Source: a virus
Virus record (IMG/VR): IMGVR_UViG_3300025137_000257
Span: 1 to 25,804 of that record
DNA: 25,804 nt
Direction: 5' to 3' (one strand)
The notes under the pieces: model-generated
Seen by the model: only the letters and a program-made list of their open reading frames with translations
The model's database searches: none
What the model was told of the DNA's origin: nothing
In this document: piece by piece, positions 1-25,804 of the stretch
How the letters are laid out: each line of letters begins with the position of its first letter
Position numbering within the stretch: the stretch's first letter is position 1
Translations under genes and position numbers: made by a program

Positions 1-3000
1 GACGCAGAGGCAGAGGCTCGTCTGGACGCCGAAGTTGAAGAGGTTGAGGTAAAGCCAGACGTAGACACCACGAAGTTTACAAACGCTGCCAAGAAAGAAA
101 TTGAAGCCAAGGGTTACGGCCAAGAAATTATTAGTCTGGTTGAACCAAACGCAAACGGTAACGTGGGCAAGCCACAGATTGTGGCAGCCAAGGAACTCTT
201 TGATCTACGTGCGCAATCGGCGAAAGACGGAGCCGCTCTTGCAAAAGCTGTTGGTGGTAAAGTACCAGAGGCAGCAGCCGAAGTTGTTCCCGATCAACCC
301 ACAACAAACGCCATGTCTAACTTGGCCGAAACGATCAAGGCCATCGCAAACAAAGATGCGTCAGTCATTTCTAAATTTTCTTCAACACTGGAAGATGCTA
401 CGCCAGACAGGCCATACGTTAATTTTAAAAGTGTGGGAAGCAAAGCATCCATCAAAGCAAACAAGCTTCTCATGGACGCAGGCTTAACACTCGATGACGT
501 TGCGCCCAGCGCCGAAAACACAATCGGCACAAAGGAAATTAATGCCGCCATCAAAAACAACAAGGGTCAGACAAACCCAGACGCCCAAAAAATGGAAGAC
601 CTTATCGTCAAGTTCGTAGGTGAGATTGGCGAAGACGTAGATCAAGCCGATGTCCGTGTCGAACTGGAAGAAAGACTGAACTCGTCTGACATAGAATTTG
701 AAACAGACGACATGATGGCACGATACGATGCTCTTAACGACAGCATTAACGAAGACTTGGCCGACCAAGTGGCTATGCGCAAGCTCGAAGATAAGATCAT
801 ATCAGCTTTCGAACCCACAGGCGTGCAGAAAGCCAACATTAGAGATTACAGAAAACTTCTACTGGAGCCAGACGACGCTGGAAATCCAAGCGACTTCACA
901 CCAGAAGATGCATTACGTCTGGCCACTTTAAAAGAAATTAAAGTCGGCAAGATTATGCAAGAGGCGGCCCCAGAGACGATACCTACAATCCTAGTTGATG
1001 GCCGTCGTGTAAACATTCGATCAGCAATGTCAAAGCATCGTCTCGACCCCACCTCTTTCGCTTCCCAAAACAAGCGTATGGGTACGAGTGATGCCATTGA
1101 ACGTGCTGCGCAGTTCGAAGGTGCTGGCCGAAACAACAACGGACGTATTATTGCCACGCTCCGCAAGGGCGCACGCCTAAATAAAAACGACATGGATCGC
1201 ACTGAGCACAAGTCCCTGCTTGATGCTAACGAAAACTTCTTCATGAGCGCCAACGTCATGGACGAAGTTGCAGCAGTTACTCGTGCTCAAACAAATGCGA
1301 GAGCAAATGCAAAAGGCACAAAGATAATTCGGGGGGACGGTAAGAACAAAACTGTCCAAATGAAGGAAGGTGACTTCCTTCCAACTATAGTTCCATTCAC
1401 CGCTAACCGTTCTACTCAAGTCAACACGATGGGCGGCACGACAGACGTACCCGCTGGCACAACGGTTTACGCTGACGGTATAACCAATCGTGTGTATGAC
1501 AGCGAGGCGACCATCGCGCACAAGCGTGGTGAAGTTTTTGTAAAAACAGACAAGAAATCTTTGATTAAAGAAGATGTAATTGTTGTTGATGCCAAGCCAG
1601 TAGATAGTTCTTTAAGCGAAGGCATGGACGTCTCCGCTCAAATGAAAAAAGACCAGCCTGCCGCTCCAACATCTGCTCTGCTTGACCCTCGTCTTGGCAG
1701 TCGTGTCCCAATCATCAGACAGAAAAAAGATAAAGACTTGCAAGGCGAGCGCATCATACGTGTAATGTCTCGCGCACAGGCCAGAAATAATTACACAGTC
1801 GAACAACTGGCTGGCGGTGAAGGCATTGAGAACTTTGATGTCCAGTACCTACCAGAGTTTGTAATACCCACGACAGAAAGACAAGAAGACCTTCTTAAAG
1901 CGTGGGGCAGCTCAGAAAGATTTGTTGCACAAGAGGGCTTTAAACCCCTTGGTGGTATATTCTTTAACGGGAACGCGACAGGTGTGGGCTTCCCTGTCTC
2001 TGAGAAGCTCATAGCCAAGGCAGAGCTGGACACAAGCAAGCTTTCTGAAGCACAGACGATGGCTTTAGATCGGCGCTCCAGCAAGCCTACCAGCGAGCGT
2101 AAGAGCCTAACTGTTGGCCAAGTAATTTCCTTTATCAACAAGGCTGAGAACGCACCTCTACCCAAAACAGAGAACGACATGGCTGTGCTCATCAGTGACC
2201 TTGAGCAAATGCACATGATCATACGTCAGTCCACACCAGAGGGATACGTCAAGAGCACCATAGACAGGGTGCAAGCGGCAACAGACATCGAGACAATACT
2301 CAACAAAGTCTCACCAGAAGAAGGCGCAGCAGCAGCCAAGCTTATTGAAAACTTGGGCGGCGATCCAACTCGCGCACCTGTCTTGGTAGAGGCAGACGGA
2401 AAGACTTATAAATACAATAGCGAGCTGACCTACGAACCAAGCACGAACGAGGTAATTGTTCAGCCAAAATCTGATACAGACTACAATCTTAGCCCTTCAG
2501 AGATGACACACATGGACTTGATGCGTGGTGTGTCTCAGTGGGCGTATCACAACATCCTTACGCCAGAAGATCGTATGAAATTCTGGGGTGCTCTCAAAAG
2601 AGAGATCGTGTCTGGAGATACTAAACTTTTACAAAGTGCAAAAAAATACGCTCCACATACACAGGGTGCTGCTGGCCGCATATTCTCAGACAACTTCGTG
2701 AGCTGGGCGTTAGAGAAGCGCTCCGCTGGCCTGTTCGAAGACAAGTCTTATTGGAAGAAAATTCAAAGCTACATCAAAGGTATATTCGACCGTTACTTCA
2801 GCAACAAGAAGATCGACCCATCACTTGAAGGTCTATTCTCCAAAGTGCTTCCTGACTTTGAGATGCAACAGCGCAAGCTCGGTGACTTCGCAGACCCAAA
2901 GACAGCAGCGGGGCGCACGTACGCAGGCTATGCTGCCAAACTGGAGTATGCAGACGAACTCGTACGAGCGGCTATCATCCGTCACTCTGGCTCTGATGCT

Positions 3001-6000
3001 AGTGACGAGGCAGTCATCAATGCCTTTATGGAAATACGGAATGTGATGGCATCTGGTATGGCATCGGTTGGGCCGCGATCACCAAAAGACATATACGGTT
3101 CTAAGCCACACTTTAAAGGCAAAACCCTGATGCCCTTCAAGCGGCATGCTGATATAATTAGTGGAAGGCTTGCTGACATTAATGAAATACTTTCTGGTAA
3201 ACCTTTTATTGAAGAGGGTGCTGCAAGTGATGCGCTCATTGGCGCACAACAGGAAGGCTTATTCAGCATTAAGGGCGACCCCATAAAGAAGGCCGCTATG
3301 CTTATTGATCTTTGGGAAAACGGTCACAAGAATTTTACGCCAACAACCAAGCCGCCAACAAAGAATGTAAACGAGGAGTTTACAACCGCTGAGTATGCTA
3401 CGCGCACTATGCAACGCGCTATCAGGCATGCGTTCAAGACGGCAGAAAACAGTGAGCTGGCCTCAAAGCCCATGAGCTGGAAAAATTTAGGGCAGCCCAA
3501 GCCTAAGTCTGTCAAACGCGCAATCAATCAAACAAGTGAAAAGCAGGCAGCCGCAAGAAAAGCAGCAGAGTTAATTCGCACAGGTAAAGAGAAAGGTCTG
3601 GCCAAGAAAACAGGACGGGGAGACGACCCGTTTACTGCATCACTGCGGGGGAAAAGCTCCAGAGAATTAGAGGAGGCATTCATAAGCGCAGACAGCACAG
3701 ATCGCGAAGAGCAGATCGCCTTTATGATGCTAGAAAAAGACAACCTCAACTACGAGCAAGGGTTAATAAAAGCTGTCCCAATCCCCGACGACATTGGGCG
3801 TATGCAAGAACCAGAATTACTACAGATGCTGCGAGATGCTGTTCGCGATGGAGACGGTGACACAGTAGACATGCTCCTGTGGAACAACACTCGTCGTATT
3901 CAGCGCAACAAGTTCACTAAGAACAACGCCAGCCAGAAGATGCCCAAGCTCTTGGAGAACGTCTACCTCCGCGAGCGCATAAAGGCAGAGGTTGATGCAA
4001 GCGCAGGCGTATCGACCACAGCAGGCATACCACCTAGCGCACCATTTAATGTGCGCAATATCCTGTCCTACCTTACCCACCGCGACCCAGTGGTAAACTA
4101 CACCCAACGGACAATGGCATACCGCATGATGAACCTCATGGGGAAAGCAACACGGGACGTGCTAGACGACACGAACATCATGTCAGCTACAGACATGGCC
4201 CGTCTCGCTGGCGTTGATCCCGCTGGTGTTAAGAATGCGGCAATGGATTTCCGTGGCGAGCAGTTCAAAAAGTTCCGTGCAGACACACGTCGCCTCGCCA
4301 TTGGCCTGACCAAGGGGAACTCTAACCCGTTCGATGTCGTCCATGAAATCGCGCACACAGTCGTGCGTGCTGGCATGCTTCCTGAGAAAGAGATGGATGC
4401 AGTAGTACAGTTATACCGCAGCTCTGACGACAAGCTGAAATCACGTATCAACAAAGACTATGGAGGTAAGTATGGAGACGCAAGTGAGGCACAGAAGGAG
4501 CTTATCCTTGCCGAAGAATGGTTCGCGGAAAGCCTCGCCAAATACATGGGCGAGCGCGTTGCAAGGGGAGACATTCTTGAAGCCCTCAACAGTGGCGATC
4601 TCTCCTCTCTTAGCCTAAAGAACTCTTTCCACACGGCAATCGACAGAGCGAGAGAGTTTGTTGCCTACATTGTCAACGGCCTCATTGGCCGTAAGGACGT
4701 AAAGCAGCAGTTCCGTCAGCTCATGTTCTACGGAGACATGTTCGAAGCACCGAGCAAGGGGCCGCTGGCTGTATTAGGTAGACGTGGACGCGCTGTGTCT
4801 CCAACATACGCACACCAATTCGCGAACGATGTCATGCGTCACTCTACCCCTGCACGCATGGCAGCAATCAAGAAATACACTGGCGGCGGTAAGTTTAGCG
4901 AAGACGAAAACGGGCCAGTTACTTACTACCATGCGACCCCGAATGGTAAGGCTTTTGACAGCCAGACGAACCCAGACGTAGTTATGTCTGACGGAGACGG
5001 AGCATTCGGCCCTGGCATTTACATTTCGCCAGACGCAAAAACTCTCGACGCAGCCTATGCGAGACGACCCACAATAGGCGCAATGACGTCTATGATCTCA
5101 CGCTCAAACCTGTCAGACGAGATTAAAGAAGAACTCAAGGATGCCGCAAACCAGCTTGGCCTAGTCCGTTCTGAAATTTCTCAGAAGCGCAGAGAATACG
5201 CAACTGCCAGCGATAGCCTCGATGACTATAACTCCCAACAGGACGGTATGCTTGGTGGCATTCGCTTTGACGATCTCGATGACGAAAGCAAGGACATGCT
5301 TGCCTTCGAGCGTGACATCATGGTCAAAACAAAAGAGGACGTTCAAGACGTACTTGATGACCTACTAACAATAGAGCAAAGCATAGACGACCTACTCATC
5401 CATCACGGTATGGTAGGAGACCCTGCCGTGATGCCCCTCTACACGCGGATGATAAATACGGCAGACTTCTCTCTGAACACAGAGCACTACTTGGGTGGCC
5501 CCTTCATGCAGGCGGTATTCAGTAGGATGGTAGGCACTGGTCTCATGGACGAGGAAGCTCTTGGTAAACGTCTGGCCGCAGCGCCAAGTGAAAACCTTAA
5601 TGGTGATCAAGCGTATAAGTTTCTTGCAGGCATAATCGAAGAAGCCAACGGCGGCTCTCGCGTGCAGTCAAAGAGTACGCTCAACGGTATGCTGGAGGAG
5701 ATGGGTTACGACAGCATGAAAACGTCTCACATGAGCACGATCTCTGACCGTGATATGTACGGCGATATGACAGAAGAAGGCGCACGTCTTGGCTCTGCTA
5801 AGATATATGATGCTTTCGTACTGTTCAGCCCAGAGCAGGCAAAGCATGTTGAGGCCAAGCACTTCGACCAAGACGACGCTCGTATGTACTATCGTGAAAG
5901 CCCCTTGGCCACAAAAGGCTTCAATGGCTCAATGACTGTTGAGATGTCAAAGGGTAATATAGACAAGGCAGAGCCAGCGATGGCCACTCAATTCCTAGAC

Positions 6001-8595
6001 AACCTCGAAGCCAATGGTGCGGAGCCTGATCTTGTAGATGCGATGGGTTCGATCATGCGCCAGCGTGTACTCAAACCACGAGAAGAGAAGGCAGTCACAA
6101 AGCTAAGTCCGATGGGCTTTCTCAGTGCTCAGTCCACTAACATGGAACGTATGGGAATGAACTGGCTCGGCGGCTGGTATCGTGATCACTTCCCAAATCA
6201 GAACCAGACCTTTGCTAAGAAATTCATGCCTGTGTATCATGCGCTCAAGCGTCTGCCAGATGCTGGCGGCAAGGCAACCAACTGGTTCAAGAAGAGCCAA
6301 GTGCTCGTGGGCATGGGTGATCCGAAGCAGCCTGCCTCACATAAAAAAATAATGACAGCTCTTCGCTTTGGCCTAGACAGCAGGGCTGGCAAGAACTTAA
6401 CGGCAGACGAGTACAACGTCGCTACTCAGATACGCGAGAAGTTTAACGACGAACATCAAGGCATGCGAGATGCTGGTATGTTTGTCGGATACCGTCGTGA
6501 CTACGTCCCACAAGTCTGGGTGCCTGAGAAGATACGCGATAATGAGCCTGAGTTCCGTGATGCAATGCGTGCGTACTACTACAAGGAAAAGACAGCCGAA
6601 GGAAAAGTAGTTACCGAGACAGAAGCAGACGAGTTTGTAGACGGAATTACTGAAACCCTGTCTGGATTAGACAACGACGATGGTGTAATGACTGGCAGCT
6701 TCCGTGGTTCGTCTACGTCACCAGCCGCTTCGTCCATAGACTACAGTAGAATGATCGAGCTGGAGAAACATCCAGAGATCATGAAGCTTATGGATAAGTT
6801 TTTAGAGAACGACCTCGAAACCATGCTGGTTAAATACTTCGAGAGCACCTCAAGAAGGATGCTGCACGTAGAAAAGTTTGGCCTCAACTCGCATGGCGTC
6901 AGTGACTACATAGCAGCAGCAGAAGGTGGCAAGAAAGGCATAGCCAAGCTGCTCTCCACGAATAAAGAGTACGTCAAAAATTTCCGTATCGTGGACGGCA
7001 ATGGCGTGGAAGAGGTTGACCTCAAAGACCAGACATTAATGCCATTCTCAAATAAACCAGCGAAAGGTCAAGAGTTTGCTGACGTCTTGGTAGAGGTATT
7101 CAACTCGCCAGCGGGAGCGCCAGCCGCTCGTGACATGCTAGACAAGGTTGCCCCTCGGATCAGCGGTGAGATACCACTGACATATCAACGTCGGGCAGAT
7201 GCAATCATGGGTGCTTTGTCTGACTTTAAAGGCGAGCCAACTCCGATTACTAAGGACGCTCACGGCTTCATCGAGAACGCTATGCGTGTGTCTCGCAAGC
7301 AGCCAATCAATGGTGGGGCAGCCAACGGACGGACGATGCTACAGACAAGCCGCGCCCTACGTTCAATAAACAACGTAACACTGCTTGGCTTTACAACTCT
7401 AACATCTCTTGGCGATCTCGCCCTCCCAATCATTAGGTCACAGTCGTTCTCATCATGGGCTAAAGCTCAGTACAATCTGGCCGCTGATCCAGAATACTCA
7501 CGCGCTATGAAGGAGATTGGCGTGGCAATGGAGAACATTGTCCATGACCGTATGATCCACATGTACGGTGGAGTAGACAGCAAAGGAAGTAACGCCTTCT
7601 TTAACGCGACAATGCTGACACCTTGGACAGACATGAACCGCAAGATGGCAGGCGCAGTCGGGTACGAGACATTCAAGATGTACCAGACCAAGACAGCCAA
7701 GCATTACAATCCTAATGTTGCTCTCGAAAATCAGTCTCGCCAATACAAGATGGCATATCGCCAGCTTAGTATGTTCGGCATGCAAGACTACGCAAAGGGT
7801 CAGCGCAGGGGAGACACGTCTTTATCTGATAGAAAGCTGCTCGATGACGATAAGGCTTTGCGTATGGGTGTGCTAAAGTTTGCAAACCAAAGCGTCTTCC
7901 AACCTAACGCAGACGACACTCCTTTGTGGGCGCAGACACCCACAGGTGCGCTGCTCTTCCAGCTTAAATCATTCCCGCTAATGATGCAGCGCATGGCAGG
8001 CAATGTTCTGACAGAGGCTTACAGACACCGTAACTTTAAACCACTGCTCTACTTCATGACACTCGGCCCTGCATCTGGCGCTGGTGCTCTGGCTATTAAA
8101 GATATTGTTCAGCGACGGGGTGGCGAGGACGAGAAGTCTCCAGAGGTTCGCGTGCGCAACGCAGCCAAGTTTATGGGCTACGACGAGAAGGTACACGGAA
8201 ACGAGCAAAACTTCTTAGGCTGGTATCTCGAAGGCTTAATGCAGATGGGTGGCTTCGGTTTGATTGCAGACGTACTGCACTCGTCTGCCAGTCAGGTAGA
8301 CAACGGTGCCTACGGTCAGCAGCGCATCTGGTCTACTCTTCTTGGCCCATCATATGGTCTAGGTAACTCAGCAATTACTATGACGGCTGGAATAAAAGAT
8401 GCCGCTATGGGTTCAACACCAGCGAGCAACGCTAAAGAGAGGTCAGCAGCTCGCGAGTTTGCTTCGCGTATCCCTGTTGTTGGTGGCGTCCGCTCTGCCA
8501 GAGAGGGGATCACTGATCGTCTGGCTGGTGAGAAAAGTGAAAGCTCTGGTGGTCGTTCGGCATTTAAAAGTGGGTTCAGTAACGCATTCAAATAG
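1..8595 (+). CDS. Giant polyvalent-type virion/ejection protein (5' partial)
   Basis: The frame is open from the first base of the window, so at least 2864 residues are encoded and the true start is upstream. Visible units (numbered from base 1): two E3-binding/PSBD-like segments at about residues 27-64 and 150-184; a metallopeptidase-like segment without catalytic residues at about 834-950; an intact HEIAH motif at 1448-1452 with EEWFAE at 1505-1510 as likely third-ligand region; an ADP-ribosyltransferase-like domain with YYHAT at 1642-1646, FGPGIYIS at 1669-1676 and a C-terminal SPEQ near 1944; then a long helical C-terminal half with a hydrophobic stretch near 2683-2704. This mix of peptidase, ART and helical regions in one chain is the pattern described for phage 'polyvalent proteins', thought to be injected with the DNA. 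It sits just upstream of the lysis genes, as internal virion proteins often do. Exact role is inferred. The stop lies 9 bases before the next start. Confidence 0.9.
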   Translation, partial: DAEAEARLDAEVEEVEVKPDVDTTKFTNAAKKEIEAKGYGQEIISLVEPNANGNVGKPQIVAAKELFDLRAQSAKDGAALAKAVGGKVPEAAAEVVPDQPTTNAMSNLAETIKAIANKDASVISKFSSTLEDATPDRPYVNFKSVGSKASIKANKLLMDAGLTLDDVAPSAENTIGTKEINAAIKNNKGQTNPDAQKMEDLIVKFVGEIGEDVDQADVRVELEERLNSSDIEFETDDMMARYDALNDSINEDLADQVAMRKLEDKIISAFEPTGVQKANIRDYRKLLLEPDDAGNPSDFTPEDALRLATLKEIKVGKIMQEAAPETIPTILVDGRRVNIRSAMSKHRLDPTSFASQNKRMGTSDAIERAAQFEGAGRNNNGRIIATLRKGARLNKNDMDRTEHKSLLDANENFFMSANVMDEVAAVTRAQTNARANAKGTKIIRGDGKNKTVQMKEGDFLPTIVPFTANRSTQVNTMGGTTDVPAGTTVYADGITNRVYDSEATIAHKRGEVFVKTDKKSLIKEDVIVVDAKPVDSSLSEGMDVSAQMKKDQPAAPTSALLDPRLGSRVPIIRQKKDKDLQGERIIRVMSRAQARNNYTVEQLAGGEGIENFDVQYLPEFVIPTTERQEDLLKAWGSSERFVAQEGFKPLGGIFFNGNATGVGFPVSEKLIAKAELDTSKLSEAQTMALDRRSSKPTSERKSLTVGQVISFINKAENAPLPKTENDMAVLISDLEQMHMIIRQSTPEGYVKSTIDRVQAATDIETILNKVSPEEGAAAAKLIENLGGDPTRAPVLVEADGKTYKYNSELTYEPSTNEVIVQPKSDTDYNLSPSEMTHMDLMRGVSQWAYHNILTPEDRMKFWGALKREIVSGDTKLLQSAKKYAPHTQGAAGRIFSDNFVSWALEKRSAGLFEDKSYWKKIQSYIKGIFDRYFSNKKIDPSLEGLFSKVLPDFEMQQRKLGDFADPKTAAGRTYAGYAAKLEYADELVRAAIIRHSGSDASDEAVINAFMEIRNVMASGMASVGPRSPKDIYGSKPHFKGKTLMPFKRHADIISGRLADINEILSGKPFIEEGAASDALIGAQQEGLFSIKGDPIKKAAMLIDLWENGHKNFTPTTKPPTKNVNEEFTTAEYATRTMQRAIRHAFKTAENSELASKPMSWKNLGQPKPKSVKRAINQTSEKQAAARKAAELIRTGKEKGLAKKTGRGDDPFTASLRGKSSRELEEAFISADSTDREEQIAFMMLEKDNLNYEQGLIKAVPIPDDIGRMQEPELLQMLRDAVRDGDGDTVDMLLWNNTRRIQRNKFTKNNASQKMPKLLENVYLRERIKAEVDASAGVSTTAGIPPSAPFNVRNILSYLTHRDPVVNYTQRTMAYRMMNLMGKATRDVLDDTNIMSATDMARLAGVDPAGVKNAAMDFRGEQFKKFRADTRRLAIGLTKGNSNPFDVVHEIAHTVVRAGMLPEKEMDAVVQLYRSSDDKLKSRINKDYGGKYGDASEAQKELILAEEWFAESLAKYMGERVARGDILEALNSGDLSSLSLKNSFHTAIDRAREFVAYIVNGLIGRKDVKQQFRQLMFYGDMFEAPSKGPLAVLGRRGRAVSPTYAHQFANDVMRHSTPARMAAIKKYTGGGKFSEDENGPVTYYHATPNGKAFDSQTNPDVVMSDGDGAFGPGIYISPDAKTLDAAYARRPTIGAMTSMISRSNLSDEIKEELKDAANQLGLVRSEISQKRREYATASDSLDDYNSQQDGMLGGIRFDDLDDESKDMLAFERDIMVKTKEDVQDVLDDLLTIEQSIDDLLIHHGMVGDPAVMPLYTRMINTADFSLNTEHYLGGPFMQAVFSRMVGTGLMDEEALGKRLAAAPSENLNGDQAYKFLAGIIEEANGGSRVQSKSTLNGMLEEMGYDSMKTSHMSTISDRDMYGDMTEEGARLGSAKIYDAFVLFSPEQAKHVEAKHFDQDDARMYYRESPLATKGFNGSMTVEMSKGNIDKAEPAMATQFLDNLEANGAEPDLVDAMGSIMRQRVLKPREEKAVTKLSPMGFLSAQSTNMERMGMNWLGGWYRDHFPNQNQTFAKKFMPVYHALKRLPDAGGKATNWFKKSQVLVGMGDPKQPASHKKIMTALRFGLDSRAGKNLTADEYNVATQIREKFNDEHQGMRDAGMFVGYRRDYVPQVWVPEKIRDNEPEFRDAMRAYYYKEKTAEGKVVTETEADEFVDGITETLSGLDNDDGVMTGSFRGSSTSPAASSIDYSRMIELEKHPEIMKLMDKFLENDLETMLVKYFESTSRRMLHVEKFGLNSHGVSDYIAAAEGGKKGIAKLLSTNKEYVKNFRIVDGNGVEEVDLKDQTLMPFSNKPAKGQEFADVLVEVFNSPAGAPAARDMLDKVAPRISGEIPLTYQRRADAIMGALSDFKGEPTPITKDAHGFIENAMRVSRKQPINGGAANGRTMLQTSRALRSINNVTLLGFTTLTSLGDLALPIIRSQSFSSWAKAQYNLAADPEYSRAMKEIGVAMENIVHDRMIHMYGGVDSKGSNAFFNATMLTPWTDMNRKMAGAVGYETFKMYQTKTAKHYNPNVALENQSRQYKMAYRQLSMFGMQDYAKGQRRGDTSLSDRKLLDDDKALRMGVLKFANQSVFQPNADDTPLWAQTPTGALLFQLKSFPLMMQRMAGNVLTEAYRHRNFKPLLYFMTLGPASGAGALAIKDIVQRRGGEDEKSPEVRVRNAAKFMGYDEKVHGNEQNFLGWYLEGLMQMGGFGLIADVLHSSASQVDNGAYGQQRIWSTLLGPSYGLGNSAITMTAGIKDAAMGSTPASNAKERSAAREFASRIPVVGGVRSAREGITDRLAGEKSESSGGRSAFKSGFSNAFK

Positions 8596-21489: not shown

Positions 21490-21836
21490 CGCTTCCCTCC
21501 CTTCACAAAGTTCAGACGCATCAGCCACGTCACCATCTCGTGCAGCGTGTCCTTACTGAACTCATTACGAAGCACGAAGCCTGCGTCAGCAGCAGCATCG
21601 AGGAATGCATCCCGCACGTCGTCTGCAACCGAACCAATCATCGCCTCGGTCAAGTCGTCTCCCTTCCTGGCTACGGCAATTACTGGCTCTTCCTCCTCCC
21701 ACATTGGTGCCTTCGGAACATACGGTCTCTTACGTGCAGTCGTCTCCCGACCACTCTCTGTCTGCGCTGGCTCATCAAAGCCAACACCCATCTCTGCCAT
21801 GCGTAACTTGGCGATCTTTGTTCTTGCATCAGTCAT
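21486..21836 (-). CDS. 116-residue hypothetical protein
   Basis: The N-terminal 55 residues are polar and probably disordered (RTKIAKLRMAEMGVGFDEPA, TARKRPYVPKAP, EEEEPV); the C-terminal half is helical (LTEAMIGSVADDVRDAFLDA and HEMVTWLMRLNFVKGGKR). It overlaps the upstream gene by 8 bases and the next by an ATGA, so it is translated as part of the leftward operon. No family recognised. The layout of a flexible front and a helical end suits a protein that tethers or recruits a partner. Confidence 0.65.
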   Translation of the reverse strand: MTDARTKIAKLRMAEMGVGFDEPAQTESGRETTARKRPYVPKAPMWEEEEPVIAVARKGDDLTEAMIGSVADDVRDAFLDAAADAGFVLRNEFSKDTLHEMVTWLMRLNFVKGGKR

Positions 21837-22155
21837 CGTCTTTCATCCTTTTTGTTTTGAAAAAACCTTCGTACTTGGGGTGCATCGCCATAAACAGACG
21901 AGCATAATAGGCGATGTAATCGTTCTTAATCTTGAACTCGCCCGTCGTTTTAACCGTCGTCTCCCACCTGATCTGGTTGATGATCAGCCATGCACTGAGC
22001 CTGTCATGACCAGCACCAATGGCCTCGAACGTGAACCGCTCGAACAACTCCCAGACATGCGGGTTCTCCTTGTGCCACAGCCACCACTGTTCTTTCTGGC
22101 TTAGTGGTATGCCCATAATTTTTTCATCAGCTCGCAGCTTCTCAGCGATACCCAT
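21829..22155 (-). CDS. 108-residue phage protein, conserved type of unknown role
   Basis: A helical soluble protein: NPHVWELFERFTFEAIGAGH, RLSAWLIINQIRWETTVKTT and NDYIAYYARLFMAMHPKYEG. This run of motifs (a 'P-x-V-x-x-LFERF' helix, 'IRWE', 'N-x-x-x-YYARLF', 'HP') is familiar from uncharacterised phage and prophage proteins. AAGGAGG lies 6 bases before the ATG at 22155, the best ribosome site in the operon, so this start is preferred to a TTG at 22161. It may be made at higher level than its neighbours. Role unknown. Confidence 0.75.
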   Translation of the reverse strand: MGIAEKLRADEKIMGIPLSQKEQWWLWHKENPHVWELFERFTFEAIGAGHDRLSAWLIINQIRWETTVKTTGEFKIKNDYIAYYARLFMAMHPKYEGFFKTKRMKDDD

Positions 22156-22297
22156 GCTCAACCTCCTTTATGATTGCTCTTACCTTGGCCAAGTCGCGGT
22201 GCCTCACACCCTTGACCTTAACTTTCTTGCCGACGCGCAACCAAAAGCGCATCTGCCACGCACGACGGGGATGCAGCCGCATCCACGCCCTGCGCAC
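22142..22297 (-). CDS. 51-residue very basic protein, start uncertain
   Basis: A small Arg/Lys/Trp-rich protein (VRRAWMRLHPRRAWQMRFWL, then VGKKVKVKGVRHRDLAKVRA). Its strong positive charge suggests nucleic-acid binding. The stop lies inside the next gene's start region. GTG at 22297, with AGGCGG 12 bases upstream, follows the CobT-like stop closely and is taken as start; TTG or ATG codons further upstream overlap the CobT-like gene, and a Met at 22282 is also possible. Confidence 0.5.
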   Translation of the reverse strand: MRRAWMRLHPRRAWQMRFWLRVGKKVKVKGVRHRDLAKVRAIIKEVEHGYR

Positions 22298-22313: not shown

Positions 22314-24293
22314 CTATCCAAGCTTCGAAGCCTTGATGAGATCGCCAGACGTGACATCGAACTTGTCGTCGATCAGCAGCCGAGCCAATTGATCGAGAGC
22401 ACCCTTCGACAGGTCGTTGATATTCATGACCACAGCGTATCGCTCGTAGAATTGTTTGACCGCATCCGACGTGATGCCGATACCGACAAGCTCGGTGCCT
22501 CCCTTCTGAGCATGAGCAATGGCATCCCTCAGATGTGAGCGACGATGATCACGCCCCCCAGCAAAGCCATTGAACTCAGGAAGGCCATCGGACATCACCA
22601 TCAAGATGCGTCTCTTCTCTGGCCGCTTCCTCAAGCGCTCGTGAGCGAACAAGATAGCCTCGCCATCCACGTTGTGATGCATGTGATGCCCAGCCAGCGT
22701 ACCAATCGCAGCACGAGCATCCCTCAGTGTCTCTTCGAAGCTCTTGAATATGATGTGACGTATCGGAGAGTAACGACTGTACTTTTTCCTCATCGCAGAC
22801 AGTTGTTCGTCACGGGGGATCGCTTTTTCGAATGTCGTGAAGCCTATCAGTTCGAAGGCGACAGTCGTACGAACCAGACACTCGCACAGTGCAATTGCTG
22901 CCTGTCTGGCCAACTGTATCTTTCCGTACCGATCCATGCTTCCAGACATGTCGACCAGTATCTGCACCGCAGTGTCTATGTCTTGCGCTTCTTCACGACG
23001 CTTGAAGACATTGACCTGACCACTCACCGCAGCAACAAGCCGACGACTGTCGAGGCGACCATGCTCTCGGCCACCCTCCCAGAACCTGTCTTGCTTGGCC
23101 ATGAATGCACGAGCCAGCTTGCGACCCATCACATTGATTGTATCGCCCAGCTTGTTCTTTTCGGAGGTGTACATACGCTGGTTGCCATTGCTCAAAACAC
23201 GGCAAAAGACGTCATCAGGATGCGGCCCGTCTTCCAACGTTCGGTGACACACCCTATCGTACTCGGTTGTGTACAGCCTATAGTGTTTACCATCATGGCC
23301 CGTCAGACCAGCGGCCTTGAGCGTACCATCGAGACCACGCCTGAGATCAAAGTCGAGCGGAGTTACTTCGTCTGGCTCAGTTCCTCCTCCTCCCTCTGCA
23401 TCAGTTCGAGCACCAGTGTCTTCGCCTTCCTCTTCTTCTCCCGCGCTTGCTTCGCTGTCGTCCTCGTCTGCATCGTCCTCGTCTACGCCTCCCTCATCAG
23501 TAGATTTTGTGCCGTCTTCAGCATCAGATCGACGTGAGCTATCGCTGTCATCCTTGTCTCCATCGGATGGTTCACCGCCAGACCCGCCGTCTTCATCAGC
23601 TCCCGACTTAGGCTCACCAGTTCCGTCACCGCCCCCATCCTTTCGCTTTCTTTCTGCATCCTTGATGTCTCCATAGTAAATTTCTACTGCCAGCTTGATT
23701 GTCTCTGCGGTGTTCGCGCAGTCATGAATGCGAGACACCCACTCCTTCACCTTGGCCTGCAACTCTTCGGGTATCAGGGACATGCACTCGTCTACGCCCT
23801 TGATGCCATCGTAAGCACGACGGCCTTCCCAAGTCACAGCCAACGGGCCGACCGACGCCCAGCTCTGAAGGGCAGGGTCATCACTTCCATTGTTCTCCTC
23901 GAAGAACATCTCATTGCATGACGTAGCAACGGCAGACAGGTTCTTTTCGGAGCCTGCGTACTCACGCATGACCCTCTTCTCCAGCCACATATCTTCGATG
24001 GCATTGTGCAAGCCCTTGAGCACGGGCTTACCCTCGTCAAGCCACCGCTTGTATGTCTCCATCGTCAGCGGCATGTCGCTGTGTCTGTTGTGACCACCCT
24101 CGTGATCCACGTAGCCACGCATGACCATCTGTGTCTCGACGTCCACCTCTTTCTCGTGTGAGATCGAGGGCAAGTACACGTTCTTGCCATCAGTGGCAGC
24201 TCCGTCACCCTTGAAGATGACTTTCAGCTCTTTCTTACGACCGAAGACGCTACTTGTCTGCGTCATCTCGTGTTCGAATGTCTGTGATTTCAT
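22314..24293 (-). CDS. CobT-like protein: HExxH domain, acidic linker, VWA domain
   Basis: A 659-residue protein in three parts. Residues 1-215 form a helical domain with HEGGH at 64-68 and a helix LHNAIEDMWLEKR (95-107) whose Glu100 could be a third metal ligand, as in zincin-type peptidases. Residues 216-312 are an Asp/Glu/Gly/Ser-rich disordered linker. Residues about 440-640 are a von Willebrand A domain with metal site DMSGS (448-452), GFTTF (484-488) and SDG (568-570). Acidic linker plus VWA is the plan of CobT, the cobaltochelatase subunit that works with the AAA+ CobS. The partner ATPase is encoded upstream, with an 88-residue gene between and ATGA overlaps throughout. No CobN is visible, so chelation is not assured; a MoxR-VWA remodelling role is possible. 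Confidence 0.85.
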   Translation of the reverse strand: MKSQTFEHEMTQTSSVFGRKKELKVIFKGDGAATDGKNVYLPSISHEKEVDVETQMVMRGYVDHEGGHNRHSDMPLTMETYKRWLDEGKPVLKGLHNAIEDMWLEKRVMREYAGSEKNLSAVATSCNEMFFEENNGSDDPALQSWASVGPLAVTWEGRRAYDGIKGVDECMSLIPEELQAKVKEWVSRIHDCANTAETIKLAVEIYYGDIKDAERKRKDGGGDGTGEPKSGADEDGGSGGEPSDGDKDDSDSSRRSDAEDGTKSTDEGGVDEDDADEDDSEASAGEEEEGEDTGARTDAEGGGGTEPDEVTPLDFDLRRGLDGTLKAAGLTGHDGKHYRLYTTEYDRVCHRTLEDGPHPDDVFCRVLSNGNQRMYTSEKNKLGDTINVMGRKLARAFMAKQDRFWEGGREHGRLDSRRLVAAVSGQVNVFKRREEAQDIDTAVQILVDMSGSMDRYGKIQLARQAAIALCECLVRTTVAFELIGFTTFEKAIPRDEQLSAMRKKYSRYSPIRHIIFKSFEETLRDARAAIGTLAGHHMHHNVDGEAILFAHERLRKRPEKRRILMVMSDGLPEFNGFAGGRDHRRSHLRDAIAHAQKGGTELVGIGITSDAVKQFYERYAVVMNINDLSKGALDQLARLLIDDKFDVTSGDLIKASKLG

Positions 24294-24556
24294 AGTATGT
24301 CCTCCAAATTTATGCGCTTGATGTGAATGTCGTTCGCTTGCATGAACTCATTGGGTTCATCACACTCGACGTCATACTCATCGACCCATTCACCGCAGAC
24401 CCACTCGCTGAACTGCTCGTACTGGTCTTGGTCGATCACGTACGCATGGCTTGTTTGATCGTACGTCACGACGACCAAACAGCTTGTGATTGCGGGTGCT
24501 TGGCCAGCTCTCCACTGGCCAACGTGGTAAAGTTCTGGTTGCATTACGTGTGTCAT
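24290..24556 (-). CDS. 88-residue protein between the CobS- and CobT-like genes
   Basis: An acidic soluble protein: PAITSCLVVVTYDQTSHAYV, then DQDQYEQFSEWVCGEWVDEY and MQANDIHIKRINLEDIL. A beta hairpin-like front and an acidic helical end suggest a small folded domain. Its ATG overlaps the CobS-like stop and its stop overlaps the CobT-like start, both as ATGA, so the three proteins should be made together in fixed ratio. It may be an adaptor or regulator of the AAA+/VWA pair; that is inference from position. No family recognised. Confidence 0.7.
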   Translation of the reverse strand: MTHVMQPELYHVGQWRAGQAPAITSCLVVVTYDQTSHAYVIDQDQYEQFSEWVCGEWVDEYDVECDEPNEFMQANDIHIKRINLEDIL

Positions 24557-25804
24557 GCCACCACCCGATCTACGATGCCTGACAACACCGCTCTGTCTGT
24601 GCTGGATGCACGAGCAAGCACGACAGTATCGAACGCACGCTTGAGTGCCTTCTGGCTCTCCTTGCCAGTGGACATGCCACCAAAGATCGCCACCGCATTT
24701 GCCAATGCGACCATGCCACGAGGTGACATAGGCTGGAGAACTTTGGCTGACTTGAACGCTGCAAGATGCTCGGTCACATAGGATGTGATGACCTTGCGAT
24801 GCGCCTCGTCTAGGTTGGGAACCTTGCGCTTGATGAGCCTGTTGCGATCTATTGCATCGAGGTAATCTATCTCAGCCCACACGGTGAAGCGGTCGAGCAA
24901 CGCCAGTGACTGAGGTCGAGCACCAGCATACATGCCATGCTCATCACCTTGGCCTTGAGTATTACCCGTGGCGAACATGCGGAACATCTGATGTGGCTTG
25001 ACGAGACGACCACCATCCTCGGTCAACAGCAGGCCATTGCCTTCGAGAGCACGCTGCATGACATAGGCTACGTCTGGCCTGACAAAGTCGATCTCGTCAC
25101 AGCACAGCATGTATGGCCCAGACATTGCTTGAGGCAAGATGCCATCGGCAAACGACGAGACAGTCACACCATCCTCGGTGCTCAGTACGTCACGACCGAT
25201 CAAGTCCATGCGAGTGATCTCGCTGTCGAAGTTGACCCGCATGAACGGCCACAAGAGCACGGCACATATCTGCTCGACGAGTGTCGTCTTGCCTGTCCCT
25301 GTGTGACCATAGAGGTAGGCACGCTGGTTGGTCATGATGCCGAACAGACAGCGCAGCAATTCCTCTGGCCGAAAGATGTAGTCTGGATCGACTGGCGGCA
25401 CATGTGGATGTGTGCCTTCCCATTCCCACATGACCATGTCGAAGTCGAACATGTGTTTGTTTGTACCCGTGATACCAAACAGCTCGGCTGCGTTCTTGGT
25501 CACGACATTACCCGCTGGAATTGGCAATGGGCCAGACGTCGTAGCTGGTGCCGCAGCAACAGGAGCCATCGACATCTTGCTTGCTGCCTTGCGTGCCTCG
25601 GTCAACTCGTCTGTGCTTTTCGATAGCTTCAGCTCAAGTGCTGCAACCTCAGACGATGCAGTGTTAATCGTTGCGACCATGTCCTCGATACACGGCAGAC
25701 CCTGTGTCTTGAGCACAGCGTCTAGTATCATGGCCTGCCCACTGTCTGGCATGACAAGCCTCGGTGTGGTTGCGATCTTGGCTACGTCTTCGACGGCCAA
25801 TTTC
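24553..25804 (-). CDS. CobS-like MoxR-type AAA+ ATPase (5' partial)
   Basis: At least 415 residues; the frame is open to the window edge, so the true start is probably outside. Numbered from the TTG at 25800: a helical N-terminal region with Ala/Pro-rich linker (about 65-98), then an AAA+ core with Walker A GHTGTGKT (165-172), Walker B MLCCDEID (231-238), sensor-1 FATGNTQGQGD (276-286), an arginine finger in LLDRF (Arg304) and sensor-2 SPRG (Arg361). The sequence style is CobS/MoxR. In cobaltochelatase CobS forms hexameric rings with CobT; phage CobS-like proteins are known in marine phages but their role is not settled. It heads a coupled cassette with the 88-residue and CobT-like genes. Confidence 0.88.
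   Translation of the reverse strand, partial: KLAVEDVAKIATTPRLVMPDSGQAMILDAVLKTQGLPCIEDMVATINTASSEVAALELKLSKSTDELTEARKAASKMSMAPVAAAPATTSGPLPIPAGNVVTKNAAELFGITGTNKHMFDFDMVMWEWEGTHPHVPPVDPDYIFRPEELLRCLFGIMTNQRAYLYGHTGTGKTTLVEQICAVLLWPFMRVNFDSEITRMDLIGRDVLSTEDGVTVSSFADGILPQAMSGPYMLCCDEIDFVRPDVAYVMQRALEGNGLLLTEDGGRLVKPHQMFRMFATGNTQGQGDEHGMYAGARPQSLALLDRFTVWAEIDYLDAIDRNRLIKRKVPNLDEAHRKVITSYVTEHLAAFKSAKVLQPMSPRGMVALANAVAIFGGMSTGKESQKALKRAFDTVVLARASSTDRAVLSGIVDRVVA

Follow-up and report, generated by a model that had tools for sequence, protein, structure and literature searches.

The window analysed here is the whole of IMGVR_UViG_3300025137_000257, a linear tailed-phage fragment of 25.8 kb from IMG/VR. 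It encodes an integrase, a PrimPol-helicase, Sak4, a Cas4-like exonuclease, an endolysin and a 2864-residue virion protein, whose ORF (1-8595) is open at its 5' end and weakly matches phrog_6958 (virion structural protein) and phrog_16310. The window also carries three consecutive genes for a CobS-like AAA+ ATPase, a small acidic protein and a CobT-like protein (Table 1), and the ATGA overlaps described in the initial annotation were seen at both of their junctions. An additional 110-residue ORF (21829-22161) matches phrog_13625 (unknown), and a comparable ORF separates cobS from cobT in the locus L088.

Table 1. Genes, domains and sites of the CobS/CobT-like locus
Feature	Coordinates	Strand	Evidence or remark
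CobS/MoxR-like AAA+ ATPase, 416 residues	24553..25803	-	PF07728 (AAA_5) 3e-15; phrog_249 4e-51; motifs
88-residue acidic protein	24290..24556	-	lineage-specific; ATGA overlaps with both neighbours
CobT-like protein, 659 residues	22314..24293	-	metallopeptidase-like N-terminal domain, acidic linker and VWA domain
CobT-like N-terminal domain, residues 1-215	23649..24293	-	PF06213; AlphaFold2
HEGGH, residues 64-68 of the CobT-like protein	24090..24104	-	within predicted helix 52-71
N97-A-I-E100-D101-M-W-L-E105	23979..24005	-	predicted helix 90-111; second half of the predicted metal site
Acidic linker, residues 216-320	23334..23648	-	net charge -28
CobT_C VWA domain, residues 429-641	22371..23009	-	MIDAS D448/S450/S452/D569 intact

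CobS and CobT form the AAA+ part of cobaltochelatase, and MoxR-VWA pairs remodel proteins. The identification of the first gene as a CobS-like AAA+ ATPase was borne out by its Pfam and PHROG matches and by the Walker A (GHTGTGKT, residues 166-173), Walker B (CCDE, 234-237) and sensor-1 (FATGN, 277-281) motifs, but the contig end truncates the ORF at its N-terminus, leaving 416 residues as compared with 652 in L004 and 617 in CRP-810. The long acidic linker reported for the CobT-like protein is likewise real, as is the intact VWA metal site, in which D448, S450, S452 and D569 are invariant across an alignment of 11 sequences. The locus presents the hallmarks of a MoxR AAA+/VWA pairing, namely an AAA_5-type ATPase adjacent to a VWA protein with an intact MIDAS.

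Pfam searches with the CobT-like protein returned both CobT domains (CobT_C/VWA at 1e-37 and the CobT N-domain at 9e-10), and a solved CobT chain matches it at 1e-36. The N-domain of the phage protein also aligns over its length with PDB 21vu_H (E 0.0036), and every one of the 35 viral or prophage N-domains that were aligned is matched by PF06213. These sequence comparisons mark the protein as genuinely homologous to cellular CobT. The family is broadly distributed: whole-protein BLAST recovered 47 phage records, none of which reached 60% identity, and relatives of CobS and CobT were found in 531 phage and 1003 plasmid records, respectively. The initial annotation had postulated an added peptidase-like domain; the helical N-terminal domain does bear a peptidase-like site, but its being an addition is not supported, the domain being CobT's own PF06213 domain, whose site was lost from, or never present in, bona fide CobT.

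The presence of HEGGH in this helical domain was confirmed by an ORF check and by the predicted structure. The motif is not a chance occurrence, because amino acid composition predicts only about 0.025 HExxH per 215 residues and because HExxH followed by N..xD...E was found in 70 of 70 full-length viral relatives collected by the VWA motif alone; an earlier scan pattern contained HE and gave biased HExxH counts, so the VWA-only query is the one used here. Among 20 phage proteins with 17-74% identity to that of the window (alignment A4), H64, E65, H68, N97, D101, E105 and G114 are invariant. HExxH occurs in the N-domain of annotated relatives from phages of Roseobacter, Rhizobium, Escherichia, Salmonella, Vibrio and Rhodococcus and from Cobavirinae, as well as in the Cyrano/SSU5-type phages and phage-plasmids, which carry HEVAH and have E. 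coli as a host. It is also found in the cyanophage genes annotated as 'peptidase' and in gp2 of HHTV-2. In the last virus (L019), the metallopeptidase-like domain and the VWA domain occupy separate ORFs, gp2 and gp3, which shows the modules to be separable. A text search for CobT, HExxH and phage together found no paper.

A different picture emerged for cellular CobT versus the phage family. A PF06213 search of 150 genomes from one bacterial phylum, that of Paraburkholderia, gave 39 matches, and HExxH was absent from the scanned N-terminal region of all of the 30 best, which typically read RG.ADS.AL and EQARVEA; one of these ORFs (L229) is visibly out of frame, leaving 29 informative sequences. 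The weakest of the 39 matches (G091) is of the phage type and contains HECGH. Within a representative set at <60% identity, D101 and E105 are retained in 60 of 60 sequences with HExxH and N97 in 59, and the three residues are never retained together in the 16 sequences that lack HExxH, although these sequences share ancestry and do not count as independent events. HExxH and N/D/E behave as one unit in these alignments. This site has been lost in Nican01, ANB28, Kistimonas and an Acinetobacter plasmid copy, and peptidase activity would therefore be dispensable in some lineages. On an unrooted tree built from VWA columns only, the HExxH state changes five times, at least three of these changes being forced by starred branches; a shared site lost several times is a simpler account than one gained several times, the direction itself being inferred. 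In two further sequences (L070 and L071), which retain N, E, D and E, HExxH is replaced by the one-residue-longer HEAGGH.

The AlphaFold2 model of residues 1-215 (pLDDT 94, pTM 0.89) is helical with two short strands. N97, D101 and E105 are predicted to lie about one turn apart on their helix, which is separated from the HEGGH helix in the core model by one short helix alone, and the invariant D101 and E105 are candidate third metal ligands. The initial annotation had proposed comparing this domain with zincin families. The CobT-like protein of the window matches no Pfam peptidase family, and PF13203 in particular is unmatched by it and by every member of alignment A3. A Foldseek search with the whole N-domain had no significant match in the PDB, and in BFVD the only clear hits were members of the same family, among them HHTV-2 gp2 and proteins of Gordonia phages. 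When the core (residues 1-135) was compared with the PDB, the top two hits were both chains of selecase (4qhi; E 0.23 with probability 0.51, and E 0.26), which are not significant; lower in the list, and equally non-significant, were BlaR1 (TMq 0.52), the VgrG2b effector domain, an aminopeptidase N complex and many ferritins. Selecase is a minigluzincin metallopeptidase, and the model leans towards a minigluzincin-like core through this statistically non-significant structure match. By hhalign, HExxH and the TDG strand that precedes it align with DUF2201_N, which in N4 gp25 forms a putative metallopeptidase domain, at E 8e-4 and 24% probability with fourteen sequences; the same comparison was not significant with seven. 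A weak profile match to AcrIIA26 (E 0.0035) depends on an acidic helix and was dismissed as fortuitous.

The small protein between the two genes is acidic as described (88 residues, net charge -14). No Pfam, PHROG or phage (tblastn) match was found for it, and its sole homologue lies on one contig, recorded twice as L005 and L022. It had been put forward as a partner within the machine, an idea that does not generalise beyond this one relative, and the protein is probably not a core component. The same three-gene order was looked for in 70 viral loci, 53 of which have cobS directly adjacent to cobT; with the small gene not conserved, a conserved three-gene cassette is ruled out.

The phage genes have been interpreted in terms of vitamin B12. 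According to PMC8651126, cobST is widespread in tailed viruses, the 'peptidase' annotation of cyanophage cobT is mistaken, and viral CobST serves B12 metabolism, likely relying on host CobN. In the auxiliary metabolic role proposed there, phage CobST together with host CobN would supply more cobalamin for phage nucleotide synthesis through class II RNR. The homology to CobS and to both CobT domains, including the solved CobT chain, is real, T5S1 (Cobavirinae) carries an RNR, cobaviruses are named after a B12-dependent RNR (PMC6775973), and a phage could still use CobN of its host. The window had been reported to contain no CobN, which a search confirmed; since absence from a 25.8-kb fragment is weak evidence by itself, CobN (PF02514) was sought in 42 virus or phage records with CobT- and/or CobS-like genes. 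It was found in none of them, as compared with 32 of 39 genomes with cellular CobT, and the same search found no CobN in E. coli, which was among the control genomes and is a host of some of these phages. The RNR large subunit was undetected in 30 of the 42 records, some of which are fragments, so a general role in supplying B12 to RNR is unlikely. Moreover, the HExxH site is kept in phages and missing from bona fide CobT. The suggestion that the pair does not insert cobalt is supported by both the CobN result and this site, and we regard the auxiliary metabolic explanation as quite improbable.

Gene context bears on what the pair might act on. In cyanophages, cobS and the 'peptidase' gene lie between recombination genes and those for the sliding clamp and clamp loader. 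The pair is found upstream of DnaE in SSU5, Cyrano, Nican01, ANB28 and Rhizobium phages; in ICP2 and T5S1, genes for primase/helicase or polymerase come after it, and in five prophage-like loci cobTS is followed by DnaE. In all five of the prophage-like loci tested (L102:10256-13606, L113:9535-13056, L109:9684-13046, L119:10625-14125 and L121:10480-13899) this DnaE carries at its C-terminus a domain of the UDG superfamily (PF03167, E 2e-6 to 1e-8), forming a polymerase/uracil-glycosylase-like fusion; a cellular DnaE (L118) shows an OB-fold match there instead. Listeria phage LP-026 also has a CobS-like gene; the three larger neighbouring genes that were read showed neither HExxH nor a MIDAS motif.

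The initial annotation had suggested processing of a virion or host protein; the former would be done by a MoxR/VWA chaperone for virion assembly whose peptidase processes structural proteins, as proposed for jumbo-phage pairs (PMC7824862). A published analogy with a tail-assembly MoxR-vWA pair and the analogous DUF2201-type pair of GAP32, which adjoins virion genes, speak for such a role, but CobT-type pairs mostly adjoin replication, recombination or other early genes, and in the window the giant virion protein is encoded on the other strand and at the far end from the pair. Judged by position, gene context favours a replication-stage or takeover role, and virion processing appears distinctly unlikely. 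HExxH might instead bind a metal without cleaving, in a metal-insertion or protein-activation chaperone like NorQD. PMC13036017 describes metal insertion by MoxR-VWA pairs such as NorQ/NorD, and several lineages retain the protein without the site; set against this, the putative catalytic glutamate E65 is invariant together with the ligands in the 20 sequences of A4, although metal binding by itself would not call for it. We consider this non-cleaving function unlikely.

The evidence as a whole points to a MoxR-type AAA+ ATPase and a VWA co-factor with a zincin-like metallopeptidase N-domain, which is probably what the pair is, and not a cobaltochelatase. What was observed is the homology, the intact motifs, a site conserved in the phage proteins and missing from cellular CobT, and the absence of CobN; metal binding, proteolysis, complex formation and the target we infer. 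In such a machine, the AAA+ ring would dock the VWA protein via its MIDAS, ATP hydrolysis would strain or unfold a bound protein target, and the target would be presented to the HExxH site for limited cleavage, with the acidic linker giving the peptidase domain its reach. Because the pair usually lies in the early or replication part of the genome, a host or replication protein would be a likelier target than a capsid protein. Most of the related phage gene pairs, including the core pair of marine cyanophages, seem to fit this AAA+ metalloprotease-like interpretation. More tentatively, the chelatase N-domain of CobT may be a dead protease, descended from an AAA+-coupled metallopeptidase that is still active in phages, with phage 'cobST', including the cyanophage core pair, constituting a widespread replication-stage AAA+ metalloprotease; this extension remains somewhat doubtful.

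Phage genes that commonly bear a vitamin B12 enzyme label look here like an ATP-driven protein-remodelling machine with a zinc-protease-like site. If the pairs are proteases or remodellers, a well-known account of auxiliary metabolism has to be revised, the 'peptidase' annotation that PMC8651126 considers an error is probably correct, and a possible origin for cobaltochelatase comes into view. For the phage CobT-like family, the present evidence favours the peptidase reading over that of PMC8651126.

Among known systems, aerobic cobaltochelatase CobS/CobT (PF06213, PF11775) shares with the phage pair a CobS-type AAA+ ATPase and the order of N-domain, acidic linker and VWA domain. In contrast, the phage pair lacks CobN and possesses HExxH with N/D/E, whereas none of the 30 chromosomal CobTs has HExxH. 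Another parallel is the cyanophage pair of 'peptidase' (T4-GC 146) and cobS, the latter counted among the core genes of cyanophages under cobalamin biosynthesis (PMC3037559), with HEVGH, N..ED..IE, the MIDAS sequence DWSGS and cobS a few genes away; however, this pair is very divergent, has small genes between its two members, and is annotated under peptidase and porphyrin/cobalamin biosynthesis. The same plan of an AAA+ ATPase and a DUF2201_N metallopeptidase with a DUF2201 VWA-like domain is seen in N4 gp24/gp25 and GAP32_210/211. In N4 gp25 and GAP32_211, HExxH is followed by N-x3-D-x3-N, whose inner spacing is that of N-x3-D-x3-E in the phage CobT-like proteins, but these pairs belong to separate Pfam families (PF13203/PF09967) with weak profile similarity to the phage CobT-like N-domain. 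N4 gp25 itself (L180 11164-12306; PF13203 3e-87, PF09967 VWA-like 1e-46) is annotated as an HNH endonuclease, a label that looks wrong. Finally, PMC7824862 describes in some jumbo phages a MoxR ATPase with a metallopeptidase-vWA co-factor, for which virion assembly and processing were proposed; by its description, this group 2.2 pair likewise combines a MoxR AAA+ ATPase with a VWA co-factor that bears a metallopeptidase domain at its N-terminus, and the paper makes no mention of CobS or cobalt. Most likely, the phage pair analysed here is a MoxR/VWA machine of a generally known type, a variant with a metallopeptidase-like domain that has been wrongly filed as cobaltochelatase.
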